DNA from: Bacillota bacterium
GTDB lineage: Bacteria > Bacillota > Clostridia > Peptostreptococcales > Anaerovoracaceae
Assembly (NCBI GenBank): GCA_022769485.1
Contig: JALEJU010000020.1
Coordinates: 1 to 64,000, forward strand
Reading direction: 5' to 3'
Length of the DNA: 64,000 nt
In this document: in pieces, positions 1,771 through 11,927 of the stretch
Layout of the letters: the number at the start of each line of letters is the position of its first letter
How positions within the stretch are numbered: position 1 is the stretch's first letter
Translations under genes and position numbers: made by a program
The notes under the pieces: generated by a model
The model's input: the letters and a program-made list of their open reading frames with translations, nothing else
What the model was told of the DNA's origin: nothing
Database searches by the model: none

Positions 1771-1787
1771 AGGAAAAGGCAGGAATT

Positions 1788-1817
1788 TTGTCAAAATTTC
1801 TTTTCTTTCGTTTTATA
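1788..1817 (+). promoter_or_regulatory. Candidate promoter for the pot operon
   Basis: TTGTCA (1788-1793) and TTTATA (1812-1817) are 18 bases apart. This would give a leader of roughly 250 nt before potA. A second TATAGT at 1824-1829 lies close by, so the exact -10 is uncertain. Confidence 0.35.
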
Positions 1818-1875
1818 TTGGTGTATAGTAGTATGTATTGCTCATAAAAAAGCATCTGACAAACAATTTCTAAAT

Positions 1876-2046
1876 CACAGACTCACGGGTGCTGCCTAAA
1901 AACGGGCTGCCGTTAAAAAATTAACGGTAAGCTACGATTAGATCAAAGCCTTTTGCGGGAAGCAGCATGAAGGTCTGTGGGTTGGCAGGGTGTTTTCTTC
2001 GTACCGGATCGGGCAATTGAGCGACCGGGATGCTGACTTTTCCTGC
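1876..2046 (+). promoter_or_regulatory. Structured 5' leader RNA of potABCD, unassigned
   Basis: The leader contains nested complementary segments. CACAGAC (1876-1882) pairs perfectly with GTCTGTG (1973-1979), enclosing TGCTGC (1890-1895) with GCAGCA (1962-1967) and a perfect hairpin CCGTTAA/TTAACGG (1910-1916/1921-1927). A separate hairpin CCGG-TCG/CGA-CCGG spans 2004-2028. Two alternative pairings exist: CAGCAT (1963-1968) with ATGCTG (2030-2035), followed by a short T run, and GCAGG (1985-1989) with CCTGC (2042-2046). Competing pairings like these are typical of cis-regulatory RNAs. I could not match it to a riboswitch class I know. Polyamine or purine sensing would be a guess from the downstream genes. 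Confidence 0.45.
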
Positions 2047-2078
2047 TTTAACTAAAATCCGCAAAGGGGGATGCACAC

Positions 2079-3125
2079 ATGTTACAAAATATTATCAGTT
2101 TACAGCACATTGCCGCGGAATACGACGGAGAACGAGTTCTCGACGATTTCAATCTGGACATCCGCGAGCGGGAATTCATCACATTTCTGGGTCCATCCGG
2201 CTGTGGGAAGACCACGGTACTTCGGATCATCGGCGGATTTGCCGAACCTAAGGAGGGTGATATTTTTTTTGAGGGAAAACGAATCAACGGGCTACCGCCG
2301 TATCAGCGGCATGTGAATACCGTGTTTCAGCGGTATGCACTGTTTCCTCATTTGAATGTCTACGATAACGTGGCGTTTGGATTGAAATTGAAAAAGATAC
2401 CCAAGGATCAAATTCGGGAAAAGGTGGAGGAAATGCTTCGCCTCGTAAATTTGAAGGGTTACGGAAGGCGTAATGTCAACCAGCTTTCCGGCGGACAGCA
2501 GCAGCGGGTGGCCATTGCACGGGCTCTGGTAAACGAACCCCGGGTTCTTCTTTTGGACGAGCCTTTGGGAGCATTGGATTTAAAGCTGCGAAAAGAAATG
2601 CAGCTGGAATTAAAGCGAATTCACAAAGCCTCCGGAATTACCTTTGTCTATGTAACCCATGACCAGGAGGAAGCTCTGACCATGTCGGACAGAGTCGTGG
2701 TTATGCGTAACGGCGAAATTTTGCAGGAAGGGACGCCGGAAGACATCTACAATGAACCGGCCAATGCGTTCGTAGCGGATTTCATCGGGGAAAGCAATAT
2801 TCTGGATGGGATTATGCACAAAGATTATCTGGTGGAATTTGCCGGGGTAAAATTTGATTGTGTCGACAGCGGCTTTGAACCTATGGAGCGGGTGGAGGTC
2901 GTTATACGGCCTGAAGATATTAAAGTGGTTCCTCCGGAGGACGGGCAGTGGAGCGGCATTGTCAGTAGCGTTACATTTAAGGGCGTCCATTTTGAAATGG
3001 AAGTAGAGGGGCATGGGTTTACCTGGCTGATTCACTCTACCCTAATGGAAGAACCGGGAAAGATGATCGGCATGAGGTTGATCCCGGATGATATTCATAT
3101 TATGAAAAAAGCGGAGGAAGTGTAG
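2079..3125 (+). CDS. potA: Spermidine/putrescine ABC transporter ATPase PotA
   Basis: A 348-residue cytoplasmic ATPase that powers polyamine import. Walker A is GPSGCGKTT (about residues 39-47), the Q-loop lies in [10 protein letters not shown], the signature is LSGGQQQR, Walker B is LLLDEP, and the H-loop is [10 protein letters not shown]. The C-terminal roughly 110 residues form a TOBE-type regulatory domain (ESNILDG, then VVIRPEDI). The start follows GGGGG at 2066. The permease genes potB and potC and the lipoprotein potD follow with zero or negative spacing, which fixes the specificity as PotABCD rather than a maltose-type importer. A long structured RNA leader precedes it. Confidence 0.93.
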
Positions 3126-3938
3126 ATGAAAGGAAAATATGCGGCTTCCCCGTATTTGCTTTGGATGGTGCTGTTTATCCTTCTGCCGCTGGGGCTTATC
3201 GTATACTTCGCATTTACCAACGCAGAAGGCAGTTTTACTCTGGAGAACATTACACAGTCCGGAAATTATTTCCCTATTTTGATTCGTTCCATCTGGCTGG
3301 CAGCGGTCTCTACCGCAGTCTGTCTGGTTTTGGGTTATCCCATTGCGTATTTGATGTCACGCTGGAGGGGGGTCAGCGCCAGAACAATCACTTTGCTGAT
3401 CATGCTGCCTATGTGGATGAATTTTTTGCTGAGAACCTACGCCTGGATGACGATTTTGGAGAACAACGGTGTGCTGAACCAGATCCTGGGGTTTCTCGGT
3501 CTGCCTGCTCTCTCCATGATCAATACACAAGGTGCCGTGGTTTTAGGGATGGTTTATAACTACATCCCCTTTATGATTCTGCCGCTGCATTCCATTATGG
3601 TAAAAATCGGCGACGATGTAATTCAGGCTTCGCAGGATCTCGGCGCGCGCCCTGTGGACGTACTCCGGAAGGTGATTCTGCCCATGTCGGTGCCCGGGAT
3701 TCGGGCGGGGATTACCATGGTGTTTGTGCCGGCGGTTTCTACCTTTATCATTTCCCAGATGCTGGGCGGAGGAAGCAACCTGATGATCGGCGATATTATC
3801 GAGCTGCAGTTCCTGGGGAATGCGTACAATCCCAATTTAGGCTCTGCTATTGCTCTCGTGCTTATGGTGGTGGTTCTGCTGTGTATGAGCATTACCGGCT
3901 TTTTTGATGATGAACAGATGGAGGATACGCTGATATGA
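3126..3938 (+). CDS. potB: Spermidine/putrescine ABC permease PotB
   Basis: A 270-residue inner membrane permease with about six hydrophobic segments. The EAA-type coupling loop is visible as ASQDLGARPVDVLRKVILP (about residues 165-185), which docks on PotA. The N-terminus has the PotB pattern SPYLLWMVLFILLPLG. Its ATG follows the potA stop immediately (tagATG), so translation is probably coupled. It overlaps potC by four bases. Length and order are normal for the family. Confidence 0.92.
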   Translation: MKGKYAASPYLLWMVLFILLPLGLIVYFAFTNAEGSFTLENITQSGNYFPILIRSIWLAAVSTAVCLVLGYPIAYLMSRWRGVSARTITLLIMLPMWMNFLLRTYAWMTILENNGVLNQILGFLGLPALSMINTQGAVVLGMVYNYIPFMILPLHSIMVKIGDDVIQASQDLGARPVDVLRKVILPMSVPGIRAGITMVFVPAVSTFIISQMLGGGSNLMIGDIIELQFLGNAYNPNLGSAIALVLMVVVLLCMSITGFFDDEQMEDTLI

Positions 3939-4780
3939 GAAAGACACATAAAATTTCCGCCGCGTATTTGGGACTGTTCATGCTGTTTCTCTATGCGCCG
4001 ATTGCGATTTTAATTTTATATTCGTTCAATAATTCCAAGGGACGGGTATTTACGGGTTTTACCTTAAAATGGTATAGGGAACTGTTTCACGATGCGGCGG
4101 TTTTGGACAGCCTGATGACAACGATAACGGTCTCTCTGCTGGCTGCGGTTCTTTCAACAATTATCGGAACCATGGCGGCCATAGGCATTAACCGGATGAA
4201 GGGGACGGAGCGGAGTGTGATTATGAAATTCACCTATCTGCCTATCTTAAATCCGGAGATCATTACAGGGGTCTCTTTGATGCTGCTTTTTGTTACCTCC
4301 CGGTCGATTTTAAACAAGATTCATATGAATTTTGAATTCGGTATGGGAACGTTGATTGTGGCTCATGTGACGTTTGATGTAGCTTATGTTATATTAAACG
4401 TGCTGCCCAAGATCAAGCAGATGGATCAATCAATAGTAGATGCGGCTATGGATTTAGGCTGCAATCCCGTTCAGGCGTTCTTTAAAGCAACGATTCATGA
4501 GATCAAACCGGGAATTGTCGCGGGGTTCCTGATGGCGCTTACTTTCTCTATGGATGATTTTGTGGTTTCCTATTTTACGGCAGGGGTAAAGTACCAGCCG
4601 CTTTCGGTGCTGATTTATTCTATGACGAAACGCAGAGTCAGTCCGGAAATCAACGCACTATCCACTATGATCTTTGTAGTTGTGCTGGCGGCGCTGGTTA
4701 TCTGGAATGCGCTGCAGATCCGAAAAGAACGGCAGCTGCGGCTGGAGCAGTCTGCAGCAGTTAAGGAGGGAATGCGATGA
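3935..4780 (+). CDS. potC: Spermidine/putrescine ABC permease PotC
   Basis: A 281-residue second permease subunit. The N-terminal LYAPIAILILYSFN tract is characteristic of PotC, and the coupling loop reads AAMDLGCNPVQAFFKATIHE (about residues 168-187), followed by the conserved SMDDFVVSYFTAG. Start and stop overlap potB and potD through ATGA junctions, so the four pot genes form one translationally coupled unit. Some Bacillota carry a PotC-PotD fusion, but here the two are separate. Confidence 0.92.
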   Translation: MRKTHKISAAYLGLFMLFLYAPIAILILYSFNNSKGRVFTGFTLKWYRELFHDAAVLDSLMTTITVSLLAAVLSTIIGTMAAIGINRMKGTERSVIMKFTYLPILNPEIITGVSLMLLFVTSRSILNKIHMNFEFGMGTLIVAHVTFDVAYVILNVLPKIKQMDQSIVDAAMDLGCNPVQAFFKATIHEIKPGIVAGFLMALTFSMDDFVVSYFTAGVKYQPLSVLIYSMTKRRVSPEINALSTMIFVVVLAALVIWNALQIRKERQLRLEQSAAVKEGMR

Positions 4781-6069
4781 AAAACAGATTTTCGGCATTG
4801 CTGTTGACTCTGATGCTGCTTTTGTCCTGCGGACTTTTCTGGGGCTGCGGTGCCGGAGAGAAAACGGAGAAGACGGCGGTTTCTTCCCAGAGGGCGGAGA
4901 CTGAAGAAGCAGAGGCCGAATACGTACCCGATTACGATTTAGAGTACTATGAGCGGTTTAAAGGACAGGATATCGAGATCAATGTATACAACTGGGGCGA
5001 ATATATTGCCGACGGCGAGGACGGTCTCATGGATATCAATGCTGTATTTGAGGAACTGACAGGGATTCGTGTCAATTACACCACTTATGAAACCAACGAG
5101 GCCATGTATGCCAAATTGAAGAGCAAGGCAAATAATTACGATGTGATTGTGCCTTCGGATTATATGATTTCCCGGCTGATTGAAGAGGATATGATTCAGC
5201 CTCTGGATTTCAGCAACATTCCCAATTACCGTTTTATTGATGAGCCGTTTAAAAGCACGGATTATGATCCGGACAATATCTATTCTGTACCTTACGCCTG
5301 GGGGCGCGTGGGGATTGTCTATAACCGGGAAGCCGTGAATTACGAGGTAAACGGCTGGGAAGATCTGTGGAACGAAGCTCTCAGCGGGCAAATTCTCATG
5401 TTCAAAAATTCCCGGGATTCCTTCGCCATTGCGCTGATGAGCCTAGGATACAGCTTGAATTCGGAAAATCAGGAGGAACTGGAACAGGCCAGGGATCTGC
5501 TGAAGAAACAGAAGCCTCTGGTGCAGGCTTATGTGCAGGATCAGATCTTTGACAAGATGCAGGGGAACGAAGCGGTAATCGCTCCTTGTTATGTAGGCGA
5601 CTATGTTATTATGAAGGAAGTCAACGAGGATCTGGAAATTTTTATTCCCAATCCCACAAACCTGTATATTGACGCTATGTGTATTCCTGCGGATGCGCAG
5701 CAGAAAGAAGCGGCGGAGCTGTATATCAACTTTTTAAATGAGCCGGATGTAGCTGCGGATAATATGGAATACATTGTATATTCTACACCAAATGCGGCTG
5801 CGCTGGAATTGCTGGATCCGGCATACAGCGAGGACGAAATTCTGTATCCGGATGCTTCCGAACTGGAAAACTGCGAGGCTTTTGTTCATCTGTCCCAGCA
5901 GACCAATCTGACAATGGATGAAATGTGGACGGATATTTTAAGTTCCGATTCGGCTTACCGAGCCTGGGCCATGCCGGTGTTTTTGATCTGTGCTGTCGCT
6001 GTTATTATCTGCATGTCCATATACCGGAAACGAAAGAAGCAGAGAGAATCTATGGATGACTGGAATTAA
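4777..6069 (+). CDS. potD: Polyamine-binding lipoprotein PotD with a C-terminal membrane segment
   Basis: A 430-residue substrate-binding protein. The N-terminal signal has Cys at residues 18 and 24 within a hydrophobic stretch (LLSC, WGC), consistent with a lipoprotein. The mature part carries PotD hallmarks: INVYNWGEYI, YDVIVPSDYMI, VPYAWGRVGIVYN and FLNEPDVAADN. After the binding domain there is an extra hydrophobic segment near residues 399-416 (MPVFLICAVAVIICMSIY) followed by a basic tail, RKRKKQR. Typical PotD proteins are near 350 residues and lack this. It could therefore be anchored at both ends. Last gene of the pot unit; xpt starts 35 bases later. Confidence 0.9.
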   Translation: MKNRFSALLLTLMLLLSCGLFWGCGAGEKTEKTAVSSQRAETEEAEAEYVPDYDLEYYERFKGQDIEINVYNWGEYIADGEDGLMDINAVFEELTGIRVNYTTYETNEAMYAKLKSKANNYDVIVPSDYMISRLIEEDMIQPLDFSNIPNYRFIDEPFKSTDYDPDNIYSVPYAWGRVGIVYNREAVNYEVNGWEDLWNEALSGQILMFKNSRDSFAIALMSLGYSLNSENQEELEQARDLLKKQKPLVQAYVQDQIFDKMQGNEAVIAPCYVGDYVIMKEVNEDLEIFIPNPTNLYIDAMCIPADAQQKEAAELYINFLNEPDVAADNMEYIVYSTPNAAALELLDPAYSEDEILYPDASELENCEAFVHLSQQTNLTMDEMWTDILSSDSAYRAWAMPVFLICAVAVIICMSIYRKRKKQRESMDDWN

Positions 6070-6104: not shown

Positions 6105-6674
6105 ATGAACGCATTAAAAGAGAAAATTTTGAAGGAAGGCAGTGTAATCGGCACGGAAATTATAAAGGTAGATCAATTTCTGAATCATCGGATCGATGTA
6201 AAGTTTCTGGAAGAAATCGGGGAGGAATTTCATAAACGCTTCGCGGAGGAAAGAATTACCAAGATTTTGACCGTGGAAGCAAGCGGGATTGCCATCGCTG
6301 TAATTGCGGCAAAGTATTTCGATTATGTTCCCGTAGTCTTTGCAAAGAAAGCCGTTCCCAGCACCATGACCGGGGGGAGTTATACTGCGGAAGCCAGGTC
6401 TTTTACCAAAGGGACGGTTTCCATGTTCCGGGTATCCAGGGAGGCTTTATCTCCGGAAGACCGTGTTCTGATTCTGGATGATTTTTTAGCCAGCGGTGAA
6501 GCCGGTTTCGCGTTGGCGGAAATTGTGAAGGCGGCAGGGGCTGCTGTCTGCGGTATCGGCTCCGTAATTGAGAAAGAATACCAAGGCGGAAGCAGACGGC
6601 TGCGGGAGGCCGGATACCGTGTGGAATCGCTGGCTGTAATCAAGGGGATTGAAAACGGAACCATTGTTTGGTGA
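6105..6674 (+). CDS. xpt: Xanthine phosphoribosyltransferase
   Basis: A 189-residue cytosolic enzyme converting xanthine and PRPP to XMP in purine salvage. The start MNALKEKILKEG and the downstream DQFLNHRID are typical of Bacillus-type Xpt. The PRPP-binding motif is VLILDDFLASGEA (about residues 122-134). It lies 35 bases behind potD and ahead of a nucleoside-type ABC importer, so uptake and salvage of purines are plausibly linked. I looked for a purine riboswitch upstream and in 6675-6926 and saw none. An independent promoter is not obvious, so it may be read from the pot transcript. Confidence 0.93.
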   Translation: MNALKEKILKEGSVIGTEIIKVDQFLNHRIDVKFLEEIGEEFHKRFAEERITKILTVEASGIAIAVIAAKYFDYVPVVFAKKAVPSTMTGGSYTAEARSFTKGTVSMFRVSREALSPEDRVLILDDFLASGEAGFALAEIVKAAGAAVCGIGSVIEKEYQGGSRRLREAGYRVESLAVIKGIENGTIVW

Positions 6675-6803
6675 AGAAATCCCGTTAAAATATTTGCCGG
6701 ATAATAGCGAACGATATGAGTGTATTCCACAGATAAATATTCGATATAAAGCGAACATTAAAAGGAAAATGACAAAATCAAAGGAAAAACGACAGAGAAA
6801 AAC

Positions 6804-6832
6804 TTTACCTGAGAAAACGGATTGTATATAAT
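6804..6832 (+). promoter_or_regulatory. Promoter for the nucleoside ABC importer
   Basis: TTTACC (6804-6809) and TATAAT (6827-6832) are 17 bases apart, giving a leader of about 85 nt before the lipoprotein gene. Confidence 0.6.
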
Positions 6833-6857
6833 AAAAAGGCAGAAAAGATGCTCTTTA

Positions 6858-6888
6858 AGTCGGTTTACGAAGATATGATAAACCGGCT
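6858..6888 (+). promoter_or_regulatory. Hairpin in the leader of the nucleoside importer
   Basis: AGTCGGTTTA (6858-6867) pairs over 10 bp (one G-U) with TAAACCGGCT (6879-6888), followed by CTAATTATTTT. It could act as a weak attenuator or a stabilising stem. It does not fit the purine riboswitch consensus. Confidence 0.4.
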
Positions 6889-6926
6889 CTAATTATTTTC
6901 ACCAGGAAAAAAGAAGGAGAGAAAGA

Positions 6927-8171
6927 ATGAAAAAGGTAATTGCTATTTTATTGATGCTGACGATGGTATTCAGCTTTGCAGCCTGCGGCGGCGACGATGC
7001 AGACAACGCGGGCAGCGATCTGAAGATCGGCGTTATTCTCGTAGGCGATGAAAACGAAGGTTATACCTATGCGCATATGGAAGGCATTAAAACTGCCGCC
7101 AAAAATTTGGGCATTGCAGATGACCAGATCATCTGGAAGTATTCTGTAGCGGAAGATGAATCCTGCTTCGACGCTGCCGCTGATTTGGCAGACGCAGGTT
7201 GTACCGCTATTTTCTCCAACAGTTACGGCCATCAGTCCTATATGGTACAGGCTGCTGAAGAGTATCCTGATGTACAGTTTGTTTCCATGACCGGCGATAC
7301 CGCAGCTGTATGCGGATTGGACAACATGCACAACGCATTTACAAAGGTTTATGAATCCAGATATGTATCCGGTATCGTAGCCGGCATGAAGCTGGCCGAG
7401 CTGATCGAGAACAATGAAGTTCCCGCTACCGGTATCGATGCGGACGGAAATTATAAAATCGGTTATGTAGGCGCTTATCCTTATGCTGAAGTAGTTTCCG
7501 GCTACACCGCGTTCTACCTGGGCATTAAGTCCGTTGTGGAAAACGTAGCTATGGAAGTTACCTATACAAACAGCTGGTTTGATATCGCTGCCGAGGGTAC
7601 CGCTGCGGAATCTCTGATGGCGGATGGCTGCGTTATCATCGGTCAGCACGCAGACTCCACCGGCGCTCCGGCAGCTGTACAGGCAGCGCAGGAAAAGGGT
7701 ACCGTTGCTTATTCTGTAGGCTACAATGTAGATATGCTGTCCGTAGCTCCCCAGGCTGCTCTGACTTCCGCAACCAATAACTGGGCTGTTTATTATGAAG
7801 AAGCATTCAAGGCTTTGATGGATGGCGAGGATCTGGCTGTTGACTGGTCTGAAGGTTATGAAACCGGTGCGGTAGCTATTACGGAGCTGGGCGAATCCTG
7901 TGCGGAAGGCACACAGGAAGCAGTTGATGAAGCGATCGCTGCAATCAAAGACGGATCCTTGCAGGTATTCGATGCCAGCAAGTGGACTGTAGACGGTAAA
8001 AACCTGACAACATACACCTTCGACTCCACAATTATTGACTTCTCCACAGGCAATGTTGTTTACGAAGGTCAGAAATATGAAGCAATCGTTGACGGCGCAT
8101 TTGTTGAATCCAACTTCAGATCCGCTCCTTACTTTGACGTAAGAATCGATGGCATCACAGAATTGAACTAA
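6927..8171 (+). CDS. BMP family nucleoside-binding lipoprotein
   Basis: A 414-residue substrate-binding protein of the basic membrane protein (BMP/PnrA-like) family. The signal peptide ends in the lipobox FAAC at residues 17-20. The mature domain has features of the family: KIGVILVGDENEGYTYAHM, CTAIFSNSYGHQSYMV, KVYESRYVSGIVAGMKL and KIGYVGAYPYAEV. BMP proteins bind purine or pyrimidine nucleosides and hand them to an RbsA-like ATPase and two permeases, which are exactly the next three genes. Codon use suggests high expression. GAAGGAG precedes the ATG. A strong hairpin follows the stop and probably raises the level of this subunit over the downstream ones. Confidence 0.88.
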   Translation: MKKVIAILLMLTMVFSFAACGGDDADNAGSDLKIGVILVGDENEGYTYAHMEGIKTAAKNLGIADDQIIWKYSVAEDESCFDAAADLADAGCTAIFSNSYGHQSYMVQAAEEYPDVQFVSMTGDTAAVCGLDNMHNAFTKVYESRYVSGIVAGMKLAELIENNEVPATGIDADGNYKIGYVGAYPYAEVVSGYTAFYLGIKSVVENVAMEVTYTNSWFDIAAEGTAAESLMADGCVIIGQHADSTGAPAAVQAAQEKGTVAYSVGYNVDMLSVAPQAALTSATNNWAVYYEEAFKALMDGEDLAVDWSEGYETGAVAITELGESCAEGTQEAVDEAIAAIKDGSLQVFDASKWTVDGKNLTTYTFDSTIIDFSTGNVVYEGQKYEAIVDGAFVESNFRSAPYFDVRIDGITELN

Positions 8172-8206
8172 TTACTTTCAATCAGATAAATGAATTGAAT
8201 GCACGG

Positions 8207-8236
8207 TTTGGCGGAGTTCTCCGGAACTCCGCCAAA
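8207..8236 (+). terminator. Intra-operon stem-loop after the BMP lipoprotein
   Basis: TTTGGCGGAGTTC (8207-8219) pairs perfectly over 13 bp with GAACTCCGCCAAA (8224-8236). The T run behind it is poor (gtctttg). Such stems between binding-protein and ATPase genes commonly act as partial terminators or protect the upstream mRNA. Confidence 0.65.
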
Positions 8237-8287
8237 GTCTTTGTATAGGACAATTACAGGCAATTCCAAAACAGGAGAATAGTAGAA

Positions 8288-9823
8288 ATGACATCTGCCA
8301 ATGCGATTGAATTAAGAGAAATTAGCAAACATTTTGGCGAAGTAATCGCGAATGACAAAGTAAGCCTCGAAGTAAAAAAGGGTGAGATCCTTTCCCTTCT
8401 GGGAGAAAACGGAAGCGGGAAGACCACGCTGATGAACATCCTGTCGGGTATTTATTATCCGGATCAGGGGCAGATTTTGGTAAACGGCAAAGAAGTGAAT
8501 ATCAGGAATCCGAAAGACGCTTTTGATTTGGGAATCGGCATGATTCATCAGCACTTTAAATTAGTTGATGTTTTTACTGCGGCGGAAAATATTATTCTGG
8601 GGCTGCCCGGAAAAATGAAGCTTTCCATGAAGCGAATCACGGAAGAGATCAATCAGCTGACTTTGAAATACGGATTCCAGTTGGATCCAAATAAAAAGAT
8701 ATATGATATGTCCGTGTCGGAAAAGCAGACCGTAGAAATTGTTAAAATGCTGTACCGGGGTACAAATATTTTGATTCTGGACGAGCCTACAGCGGTATTG
8801 ACGCCTCAGGAAACAACTCAGCTGTTTGATGTCTTGCGGAACATGCGGGATGATGGAAAAGCTGTTATCATTATTACTCATAAATTGAATGAAGTGCTGG
8901 AAATTTCCGATCGGGTTTCTGTTCTTCGCAAGGGAGTCTATATCGGTACGGTGGATACGAAGGACGCCACGGAACTATCTCTTACGGAGATGATGGTCGG
9001 GAAAAAAGTCAGCTTAAATATAGAACGGGCGGAGCCGCGCGATACAAAAGAACTGCTCTTTGTAAAAGATCTTACATGCATGAATAAGGATGGAATCAAA
9101 GTTCTGGATCACGTTTCTTTTACCGCATTCGGCGGAGAAATTCTCGGGATAGCAGGCATTGCGGGAAGCGGACAAAAAGAACTGCTGGAATCTATCGCAG
9201 GGCTGCAGAACCCTCTGAGCGGCAGCAGCATCCGTTATTTGCAGAAGGATGAGGACGCGCCTCAGGAACTGGTGGGCAAAAGTGCCCAGCAGATTAAGGA
9301 TATGGGCGTATCGTTGGCTTTCGTACCGGAGGATCGACTGGGTATGGGTCTGGTAGGTTCTTTGGGTATGGTAGGGAATATGATGCTTCGGAGCTATAAG
9401 AGAGGAAACTCCATTTTTACCGAAAGAAAGGCTCCCCGGGAGCTGGCGGAGGAGATAAGAGAACGTTTGGGCGTGGTCACACCGAGTATTTCTACTCCCG
9501 TTCGCAAATTGTCCGGAGGAAACGTACAGAAGGTATTGGTAGGTCGGGAAATTTCTTTAAAGCCACGGGTTTTGATGACTGCTTATGCGGTGCGGGGGCT
9601 TGATATCCACACGTCGTATACGATTTATAATCTCCTTTCCGAGGAAAAGAAGAAGGGGGTTGCGGTTATTTATGTAGGCGAAGACCTGGATGTTCTTCTG
9701 GAGCTGTGCGACCGAATTTTGGTTCTCTGCGGCGGAAAAGTCAGCGGTATTGTGGATGCCAGAACGACCACTAAGGAAGAAGTGGGATTGCTGATGACGA
9801 AAAATGAAAAGGGGGGTGAATAA
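8288..9823 (+). CDS. Nucleoside ABC transporter ATPase (double-domain, YufO/NupO-like)
   Basis: A 511-residue protein with two fused ABC domains. The first has Walker A GENGSGKTT (about residues 38-46), the signature-like VSEKQTVEI and Walker B ILILDEPTAV. The second starts near residue 265, has a degenerate Walker A (GIAGSGQKE) as usual in the RbsA/YufO class, and carries signature LSGGNVQK. The Walker B region reads VLMTAYAVRGLD, where the catalytic acidic residue is replaced. The gene lies between the BMP lipoprotein and the two permeases, which supports nucleoside import. Its stop is two bases before the next start. Confidence 0.88.
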   Translation: MTSANAIELREISKHFGEVIANDKVSLEVKKGEILSLLGENGSGKTTLMNILSGIYYPDQGQILVNGKEVNIRNPKDAFDLGIGMIHQHFKLVDVFTAAENIILGLPGKMKLSMKRITEEINQLTLKYGFQLDPNKKIYDMSVSEKQTVEIVKMLYRGTNILILDEPTAVLTPQETTQLFDVLRNMRDDGKAVIIITHKLNEVLEISDRVSVLRKGVYIGTVDTKDATELSLTEMMVGKKVSLNIERAEPRDTKELLFVKDLTCMNKDGIKVLDHVSFTAFGGEILGIAGIAGSGQKELLESIAGLQNPLSGSSIRYLQKDEDAPQELVGKSAQQIKDMGVSLAFVPEDRLGMGLVGSLGMVGNMMLRSYKRGNSIFTERKAPRELAEEIRERLGVVTPSISTPVRKLSGGNVQKVLVGREISLKPRVLMTAYAVRGLDIHTSYTIYNLLSEEKKKGVAVIYVGEDLDVLLELCDRILVLCGGKVSGIVDARTTTKEEVGLLMTKNEKGGE

Positions 9824-9824
9824 T

Positions 9825-10940
9825 ATGGCAAACGGAAACGCGGTAAATGAAAAAAAGGAACCCTTTGTTCGAATTATAAAATGTGACAATACGCCCAGAT
9901 GGTACGCGTGGAGCATGCGTGCGGTTGCTATCGTGTTCGCACTTTTGATCTGTGCAGTGGTAATCGTAGCGATTACCGGTTTAAACCCCCTGGAAGTATA
10001 TAAAGCCATGTTTGAAGGCGCTTTCGGCACGGAACGGCGGATATGGATTACCCTTCGGGATATGATGATCCTGCTGTGCGTGGGGATTGCTTTAGCGCCT
10101 GCTTTTAAAATGAAGTTTTGGAATATCGGCGCGGAGGGTCAGATTTTGGTAGGCGGCTGCGCTACGGCTGCCTGTATGATTTATTTGGATAACGTGCTTC
10201 CTCTTCCTGCTCTGTTTCTGGTCATGGCTTTGACCAGCATGGCCGCAGGGGCTGTCTGGGGTTTGATTCCGGCTATCTTTAAGGCCAAGCTGAACACCAA
10301 CGAAACCCTATTTACATTGATGATGAATTACGTTGCAATTCAAATCACTTCCTATTGTGTTGCGCTCTGGGAAAATCCTTACGGTTCCAACACTGTGGGG
10401 ATTATCAATTCCCAGACAAAGGCAGGCTGGTTCCCGACTGTATTCGGGCAGCAGTATGCTTTGAATGTAATGATCGTTTTGACATTGGCGCTTGTTATGT
10501 ATATTTATTTAAAGCACAGCAAGCACGGGTATGAAATTACCGTAATCGGTGATTCGGAAAACACGGCTCGTTATGCCGGTATCGATGTGGCTAAAGTTAT
10601 CGTCCGCACCATGCTGGTATCCGGGGCGATTGCCGGCTTATCCGGCTTTATCGCTGTTGCGGGGGCGAGCCATACGATTTCGGTCAATACGGCAGGAGGC
10701 CGCGGTTTTACGGCAATTATCGTTGCCTGGCTGGCAAAATTCAACACGTTTACTATGATTGCAATTTCTTTCCTTCTGGTCTTTCTGCAGCAGGGAGCCT
10801 GTGAAATCGCGTCCCGGTTTAACCTGAACGATTACGCGTCGCAGATGATTACCGGTATCATTCTGTTTTTCATCCTGGGCAGCGAATTCTTTATCAATTA
10901 CAGATTGGTGTTTCGGGGTAAAATGAGCAAGGAGGCGTAA
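9825..10940 (+). CDS. Nucleoside ABC transporter permease 1 (YufP-like)
   Basis: A 371-residue BPD_transp_2-type permease with about nine to ten hydrophobic segments. Family motifs include FWNIGAEGQILVGG and LNTNETLFTLMMNYVA. The cytoplasmic coupling region contains GDSENTARYAGID. The ATG at 9825 is chosen because GGGGGGTG lies at ideal spacing upstream, whereas the start at 9804 lies inside the ATPase gene with no ribosome binding site. It pairs with the following permease to form the heterodimeric channel. Confidence 0.88.
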   Translation: MANGNAVNEKKEPFVRIIKCDNTPRWYAWSMRAVAIVFALLICAVVIVAITGLNPLEVYKAMFEGAFGTERRIWITLRDMMILLCVGIALAPAFKMKFWNIGAEGQILVGGCATAACMIYLDNVLPLPALFLVMALTSMAAGAVWGLIPAIFKAKLNTNETLFTLMMNYVAIQITSYCVALWENPYGSNTVGIINSQTKAGWFPTVFGQQYALNVMIVLTLALVMYIYLKHSKHGYEITVIGDSENTARYAGIDVAKVIVRTMLVSGAIAGLSGFIAVAGASHTISVNTAGGRGFTAIIVAWLAKFNTFTMIAISFLLVFLQQGACEIASRFNLNDYASQMITGIILFFILGSEFFINYRLVFRGKMSKEA

Positions 10941-10943
10941 AAC

Positions 10944-11927
10944 ATGGACAGTATGATTTCACTCATCCAGGCGGCCATCGTATTTGGTACGGTCATTATG
11001 CTGGGAGCTACCGGCGAAATTATTGCGGAAAAGGCGGGAAGCTTGAACCTGGGTGTCCCCGGGATTATGTACCTGGGAGGTATCGCCGGTTTGGTAGGAG
11101 TATTTTTTTACGAAAGCGCGGCCGAGTCTCCCAGTAAAATCGTCTGCATTCTCATTGCCTTAGCCTGTTCCATGACGGCGGCTGCTCTGGGCGGATTTAT
11201 TTACAGTTTGCTGACGATTACGCTGCGGGCCAATCCGCAGGTTACGGGATTGACGTTGACCATTTTCGGATCCGGCGTAGCTAATTTTTTCGGCGGTTCG
11301 CTGAATAAGCTGGCAGGCGGAGTGGGGCAGATTTCGGTTGCTACTACAAGTTCTGCTTTTCGAACCATGATTCCCGGGCTGCATGATATGGGCGTCGTGG
11401 GGCAGATTTTCTTTTCTTACGGATTTCTTGCTTATGCTGCGGTTATTATCGCTGTTTTAGCGCAGCTGTACCTTTCTAAAACGCGGCAGGGTCTGAATCT
11501 GCGCGCCGTGGGAGAAAATCCCGGTACAGCGGATGCTACCGGTATCAATGTTATTAAGTACAAGTATTTGGCAACCTGCATCGGGGCGGCGATTTCCGGA
11601 CTGGGCGGTCTGTATTATGTAATGGATTATACAAAAGGAACCTGGGCGAACGACGGTACGATTGAAGGCTTGGGCTGGCTGGCAGTGGCCTTGGTTATCT
11701 TCGCTACCTGGAGACCGAAAAACGCCATTTGGGGCTCGTATCTTTTCGGGCTGCTTTACTGGGCATATTTCTATATGTCCGGCCTTACGAGAAGCTCTCA
11801 GGAGCTTTTTAAGATGCTTCCCTATGTGGTCACCATTGCGGTGCTTATCGCTATCAGTCTGCGGAAAAAGAGAGAGGATCAGCCTCCTGCGGGTCTGGCA
11901 GTTTCTTATTTCCGAGAGGAACGATGA
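10944..11927 (+). CDS. Nucleoside ABC transporter permease 2 (YufQ-like)
   Basis: A 327-residue permease, almost entirely hydrophobic, with the family N-terminal pattern LGATGEIIAEKAGSLNLGV and the later motif LNLRAVGENPGTADATGIN, equivalent to the coupling loop of the partner. It starts three bases after permease 1. A clear terminator follows, ending the importer operon. Length and motifs are normal for BMP-associated systems. Confidence 0.88.
   Translation: MDSMISLIQAAIVFGTVIMLGATGEIIAEKAGSLNLGVPGIMYLGGIAGLVGVFFYESAAESPSKIVCILIALACSMTAAALGGFIYSLLTITLRANPQVTGLTLTIFGSGVANFFGGSLNKLAGGVGQISVATTSSAFRTMIPGLHDMGVVGQIFFSYGFLAYAAVIIAVLAQLYLSKTRQGLNLRAVGENPGTADATGINVIKYKYLATCIGAAISGLGGLYYVMDYTKGTWANDGTIEGLGWLAVALVIFATWRPKNAIWGSYLFGLLYWAYFYMSGLTRSSQELFKMLPYVVTIAVLIAISLRKKREDQPPAGLAVSYFREER

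Follow-up and report, generated by a model that had tools for sequence, protein, structure and literature searches.

The window analyzed here, the whole stretch of 64,000 nucleotides, carries the genes potABCD (2079-6069) and, after them, xpt and the genes of a purine-nucleoside transporter of the BMP type. On the forward strand, potA (2079-3125) encodes the ATPase of a polyamine ABC transporter and scores above the TIGR01187 cut-off. The permease genes potB (3126-3938) and potC (3935-4780) both contain PF00528, with PotH/PotB and PotC type as their respective best NCBIfam models, and potD (4777-6069) encodes a substrate-binding protein (SBP_bac_8) with PotD as its best; all three NCBIfam matches fall below cut-off. 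The xpt gene and the BMP-type ABC transporter occupy 6105-11927, downstream of potD. At 1744-1764, a strong hairpin with a T run behind it resembles a terminator for the upstream transcription unit. The genome is rated 100% complete and yielded zero matches to spermidine synthase, which fits a reliance on polyamine import.

The 227 nt ahead of potA (1852 to 2078) form a conserved leader, within which the structured RNA spans 1852-2074, its 3' end lying 4 nt short of the gene. An initial annotation had drawn the region as 1771-2078, which begins too early given the terminator hairpin at 1744-1764, a TATAGT at 1824-1829 and the start of the conserved RNA at 1852. The TATAGT, on the forward strand, is a weak, putative -10 element of the leader promoter, proposed from its letters and not called by the promoter scan. 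The segment 1836-2082 folds at -72.4 kcal/mol, compared with a mean of -62.6 kcal/mol for dinucleotide shuffles (z -2.2; 3 of 200 shuffles did as well). A terminator scan found no intrinsic terminator inside the leader, and transcription attenuation was set aside on that ground. When Rfam 15 (4227 models) was searched at gathering thresholds, no family matched the leader of the window or the leaders of 20 related loci. Relaxing the search to E values up to 10 over 1500-2300 gave chance matches only, the best of which was the upstream terminator hairpin at 1744-1764, matched by chance to a plastid psbA 3' UTR family. The proposal that an unassigned structured leader precedes potABCD had been tied to two checks, a search of Rfam and a search for compensatory changes in relatives; no Rfam family matched, and the stems do show compensatory changes.

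All of the stems proposed initially are present. The outer stem, CACAGAC/GTCTGTG (1876-1882/1973-1979), is part of helix P1, formed by TCACAGAC (1875-1882) and GTCTGTGG (1973-1980); P1 is aligned within the window's clade and covaries in other lineages. The inner stem is P2, a 7-bp helix with one G-U pair formed by GTGCTGC (1889-1895) and GCAGCAT (1962-1968), in which three of seven pairs show two-sided changes among close relatives in the clade alignment. The hairpin with an A4 loop, CCGTTAA-AAAA-TTAACGG (1910-1927), lies within the variable hairpin P3b (1903-1936), which has a conserved base (ACGGG...ACGATTAG) and a variable tip. Next to P3b, helix P3a (CTAA, 1896-1899, with TTAG, 1938-1941) is invariant in the window-type clade and has the counterpart CUAAU:AUUAG in Anaerotruncus. 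Helix P4 joins GGCAGG (1984-1989) to CCTGCT (2042-2047), and in relatives in the clade alignment it changes from G-C to A-U on both sides. A second GGGATGC (2027-2033) occurs in an insert in the P4 loop of the window that the other aligned relatives lack; pairing between this copy and GCATC (1852-1856) is possible, perhaps as a decoy or a switching partner.

Two further helices were found beyond these stems. The closing helix P0 pairs GCATCT (1852-1857) with GGATGC (2069-2074); its 5' strand is present in almost every relative whose 5' end is complete, its 3' strand is conserved in relatives, and both strands were proposed by unguided RNAalifold. The other is a 10-bp pseudoknot between CCUUUUGCGG (1949-1958; CCTTTTGCGG in the DNA) and CCGCAAAGGG (2059-2068), with a predicted helix energy of -16.4 kcal/mol and covariation in both strands. 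It is a pseudoknot because P1/P2 enclose the CYYUUUGCGG segment but not the strand with which it pairs. The 3' strand overlaps the Shine-Dalgarno sequence GGGGG (2066-2070), which falls wholly within the pseudoknot and P0. The two helices abut without a gap, and consequently every nucleotide from 2059 to 2074 is paired, GGGGG included. The initial annotation had described two competing long-range pairings near the ribosome-binding site; two such pairings are indeed conserved, as P0 and the pseudoknot, but being adjacent and compatible they need not compete. The covarying pseudoknot that masks the Shine-Dalgarno sequence, the key feature of the leader, was absent from that account. When the pseudoknot strands were held unpaired, folding recovered a common architecture in most lineages, which reads from 5' to 3' as P0, P1, P2 within P1, an optional variable P3, CYYUUUGCGG in the P2 loop, P4 and CCGCAAAGGG.

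The three distal pairs of the pseudoknot covary between genus g301 and the remaining leaders. The strands read CCCUUUGCGG:CCGCAAAGGG elsewhere and either CCCUUUGUCA:UGACAAAGGG or CCCUUUGUUCA:UGAACAAAGGG in g301, the latter form having one base pair inserted in both strands; GCGG:CCGC is thus exchanged for GUCA:UGAC and GUUCA:UGAAC. At the three distal pairs, approximately 38 sequences of the GCGG type stand against approximately 20 covaried ones, with isolated mismatches only. Since the sequences are related, these changes count as at least two coordinated events and not as many independent ones. Little covariation evidence comes from the inner seven pairs of the pseudoknot or from P0, because they are nearly invariant. 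Unguided RNAalifold also proposed P0 and the inner pseudoknot helix. In a single MAG, the leader at 6834-7002 (reverse strand) of its locus has a covarying P0, with GUGUC:GAUAC in place of GCAUC:GAUGC.

P1 to P4 covary as well. Covariation was counted within clades, because MAFFT alignments of mixed lineages (A1 and A2) misaligned P1 and P4. In five MAFFT alignments built from sequence only, 98.5% (window type), 96.2%, 98.1%, 96.7% and 96.6% of structure cells were paired, compared with 38-56% in a control in which partners were slid by 1-3 columns. Pairs changed on both sides numbered 5, 5, 5, 9 and 11 in the five alignments, and the window's own clade contributed two-sided changes at three pairs of P2, one of P3b and one of P4. 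Testing the P1/P2 duplex against shuffled 5' segments gave a weak signal: the median z was -1.6, and for 16 of 88 sequences no more than 2 of 200 shuffles did as well. Random segments of this length already pair well, which is why the alignment counts are the better test. Covariation thus establishes a conserved RNA structure whose pseudoknot occludes the potA ribosome-binding site.

Members of the leader family were found at more than 100 loci, spread over no fewer than five clostridial lineages; Anaerotruncus colihominis DSM 17241 is among the carriers. Within the window's family, blastn matches to the leader came from several genera, with identities of 71-80%, while further genera matched the last ~20 nt alone. 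A scan for the 3' element CTAAAWTCCGCAAAGGGGG in named genomes returned 22 loci with a recognizable leader in nearly all, among them Anaerotruncus colihominis, A. massiliensis, Massiliimalia timonensis, Marasmitruncus massiliensis and MAGs from rumen and caecum; a match in Agitococcus had no leader and appears to be fortuitous. Seven window-type sequences served to build a covariance model, which was run in the window's family and picked up divergent leader types, mostly at E values of 1e-5 to 1e-16, and an order-level search yielded only genomes of the same family again. So as not to search by motif alone, potA upstream regions were also read irrespective of sequence, and the leader was found before 5 of 87 potA genes in a class-wide sample and before 28 of 82 in one family (f74), two of the 28 being degenerate. 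In one f74 genus, 41 of 61 genomes had a DNA match to the leader query. A gene-agnostic pseudoknot pattern matched in 78 of 348 f74 genomes, compared with a handful in a backward-read control. C. difficile was checked through a review, which names no potA element (PMC11477304).

Variants of the leader were seen at several loci. At L166 (G752) and L171 (G762), the leaders before potA are degenerate, with a 3' element that ends in GGGGAGTC or GGGGACAC and not in GGGGATGC; spacing is altered too in L171, and the RNA at both loci looks as if it were decaying. The g301 loci L249-L268 carry a conserved GGGUAUCGCGCAG stretch 3' of P1 and a hairpin, GUCGACACU...AGUGU, beside the 3' strand of the pseudoknot. 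The UGUC of this hairpin could compete for GACA, and the hairpin is possibly an anti-sequestering arm.

In every genuine occurrence checked, the gene directly downstream of the leader is potA. This was so for 21 of 21 covariance-model loci checked and for 26 of 30 loci retrieved by the gene-agnostic pattern, one of which runs into a truncated potA start; the remaining four have no GGATGC element and appear to be chance matches. At all examined leader-bearing loci with enough flank, pot genes follow the leader. This constancy supports, as an inference, the initial suggestion of ligand control tied to polyamine import. The same suggestion had extended to purines, xanthine and PRPP, a link that found no support: only the window has xpt and the purine-nucleoside transporter after potD, and at the other leader-bearing loci inspected neither xpt nor a BMP gene occupies that place. 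Purine or PRPP sensing was dropped as the main idea since the xpt linkage is peculiar to the window.

Many other Clostridia have, just upstream of potA (at L150, G299, for instance), an open reading frame that ends in the motif W-[V/I]-S-x-P-P-x-F. One such protein has an XRE helix-turn-helix and a cupin domain, a combination known from PuuR-type polyamine regulators. Taking this motif at the end of the upstream reading frame as the mark of an XRE-cupin gene, we counted it at 40 of 87 potA genes class-wide, that is, at 40 of the 82 without a leader. It was found beside none of 33 leader-bearing potA genes in the class sample and f74 combined, a figure in which the class sample is small (n=5) and the exclusion of the regulator follows phylogeny. 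A search of the window genome, run without a control, found no XRE-cupin homologue. The RNA leader appears to stand in for the XRE-cupin regulator whose gene precedes potA in many of the other Clostridia.

The best explanation of these observations is that the leader belongs to a conserved, unnamed family of cis-regulatory RNAs controlling potABCD translation in Clostridia. We consider it probable that it turns translation of potABCD OFF, acting most likely as a polyamine riboswitch. In the proposed mechanism, P1 encloses P2, whose loop bears the optional hairpin P3 and the single-stranded CYYUUUGCGG, and this P1-P2-P3 core would bind a small ligand, our best guess being spermidine, putrescine or another polyamine. 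As covariation shows, CYYUUUGCGG extends out of P1/P2 to pair with CCGCAAAGGG before potA, the 5'-terminal GCAUCU pairs with GGAUGC, and the whole Shine-Dalgarno region is buried by these two helices. Ligand binding would stabilize the pseudoknot, such that ribosomes are blocked at potA when polyamine is plentiful. We infer regulation, a polyamine as its signal and an OFF state on binding: an importer should shut when its substrate is plentiful, and the leader has no terminator, an elaborate core and a single target gene, features familiar from translational riboswitches that bind metabolites. A covarying structure in the 5' UTR, engagement of the Shine-Dalgarno sequence (2059-2074) and association with a single pathway were all found. 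Judged from gene context alone, a polyamine is the most likely ligand.

The same RNA and pseudoknot could respond to a different signal, such as a purine, PRPP or an ion like Mg2+. Gene context does not identify ligand chemistry, and xpt and a purine-nucleoside importer do follow potD in the window, yet the constant partner of the leader is potABCD and the other loci examined lack xpt and BMP genes after potD, so we regard a non-polyamine signal as quite unlikely. It is also unlikely that the leader is the target of a trans-acting protein or small RNA, with no metabolite bound by the RNA itself. Many RNA leaders are bound by proteins, and the strongly conserved CCGCAAAGGGGGAUGC element and the loop segments would suit a protein site; however, a multi-helix core joined to a pseudoknot at the ribosome-binding site is typical of a translational riboswitch, and neither an XRE-cupin gene nor a candidate gene for an RNA-binding protein was recognized beside leader-bearing potA. 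A constitutive structure that tunes translation, or a thermometer, would likewise bury the Shine-Dalgarno sequence without a specific signal. A thermometer, however, could do without conserved loop sequences, without so elaborate a P1-P2-P3 core and without being confined to a single gene in many genera, and we hold this reading to be very improbable.

Comparison with known systems places the putative polyamine riboswitch apart from each. The spermidine riboswitch described by Salvail et al. (2023, PMC10853860) is a SAM-I variant that acts as an OFF switch by transcription termination, and it precedes polyamine-synthesis genes in Trichococcus and in relatives of Bacillus. Both RNAs accompany polyamine genes in Gram-positives, with OFF behavior shown there and expected here, but the leader is found in Clostridia, precedes importer genes and has no terminator, and no Rfam model, SAM-I included, matched the window or its relatives. 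In preQ1-II and SAM-II riboswitches, which control translation, the 3' strand of a pseudoknot contains the Shine-Dalgarno sequence. The leader shares this arrangement and differs in size, helices and sequence, with no Rfam match to either class; unlike theirs, its pseudoknot draws the 5' strand from the loop of P2 within a P1-P2 hairpin. The potE motif is an orphan confined to Veillonella, before an antiporter gene and with a poorly supported structure, and the odc1 motif is an orphan linked to ornithine decarboxylase (PMC8632094); like the leader, they are structured RNAs beside polyamine genes, but neither precedes potA. The potC motif (RF01751), named for a polyamine transporter gene, is marine only (PMC2864571), and its Rfam model has no match here. 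The ABC-leader of Pasteurellaceae also lies upstream of potABCD (PMC2965389), and is set apart by its description as gammaproteobacterial with a premature terminator. In the part of the literature that our search covered, the SAM-I variant was the only validated spermidine riboswitch, and none of the potE, odc1 and potC motifs, as described, is like the leader; with this incomplete coverage, an earlier description is possible. We accordingly regard the leader as a new family within a known kind of RNA.

We give about even chances to the broadest reading, that the leader represents a widespread, undescribed polyamine riboswitch class with its own pseudoknotted fold, unrelated to SAM-I, which directly senses spermidine or putrescine, represses importer translation in Clostridia of the gut and replaces a protein repressor. 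The leader is carried by named strains, including Anaerotruncus colihominis DSM 17241, Massiliimalia timonensis and Marasmitruncus massiliensis, and the covarying pseudoknot makes sharp mutational tests possible. Natural polyamine riboswitches have long been sought, and in the literature covered here just one rare class has been validated (PMC10853860). If the broadest reading is true, the leader would be a second, structurally independent class that shows how Clostridia of the gut and rumen set polyamine uptake, and it would provide a clean case of an RNA replacing a protein regulator.
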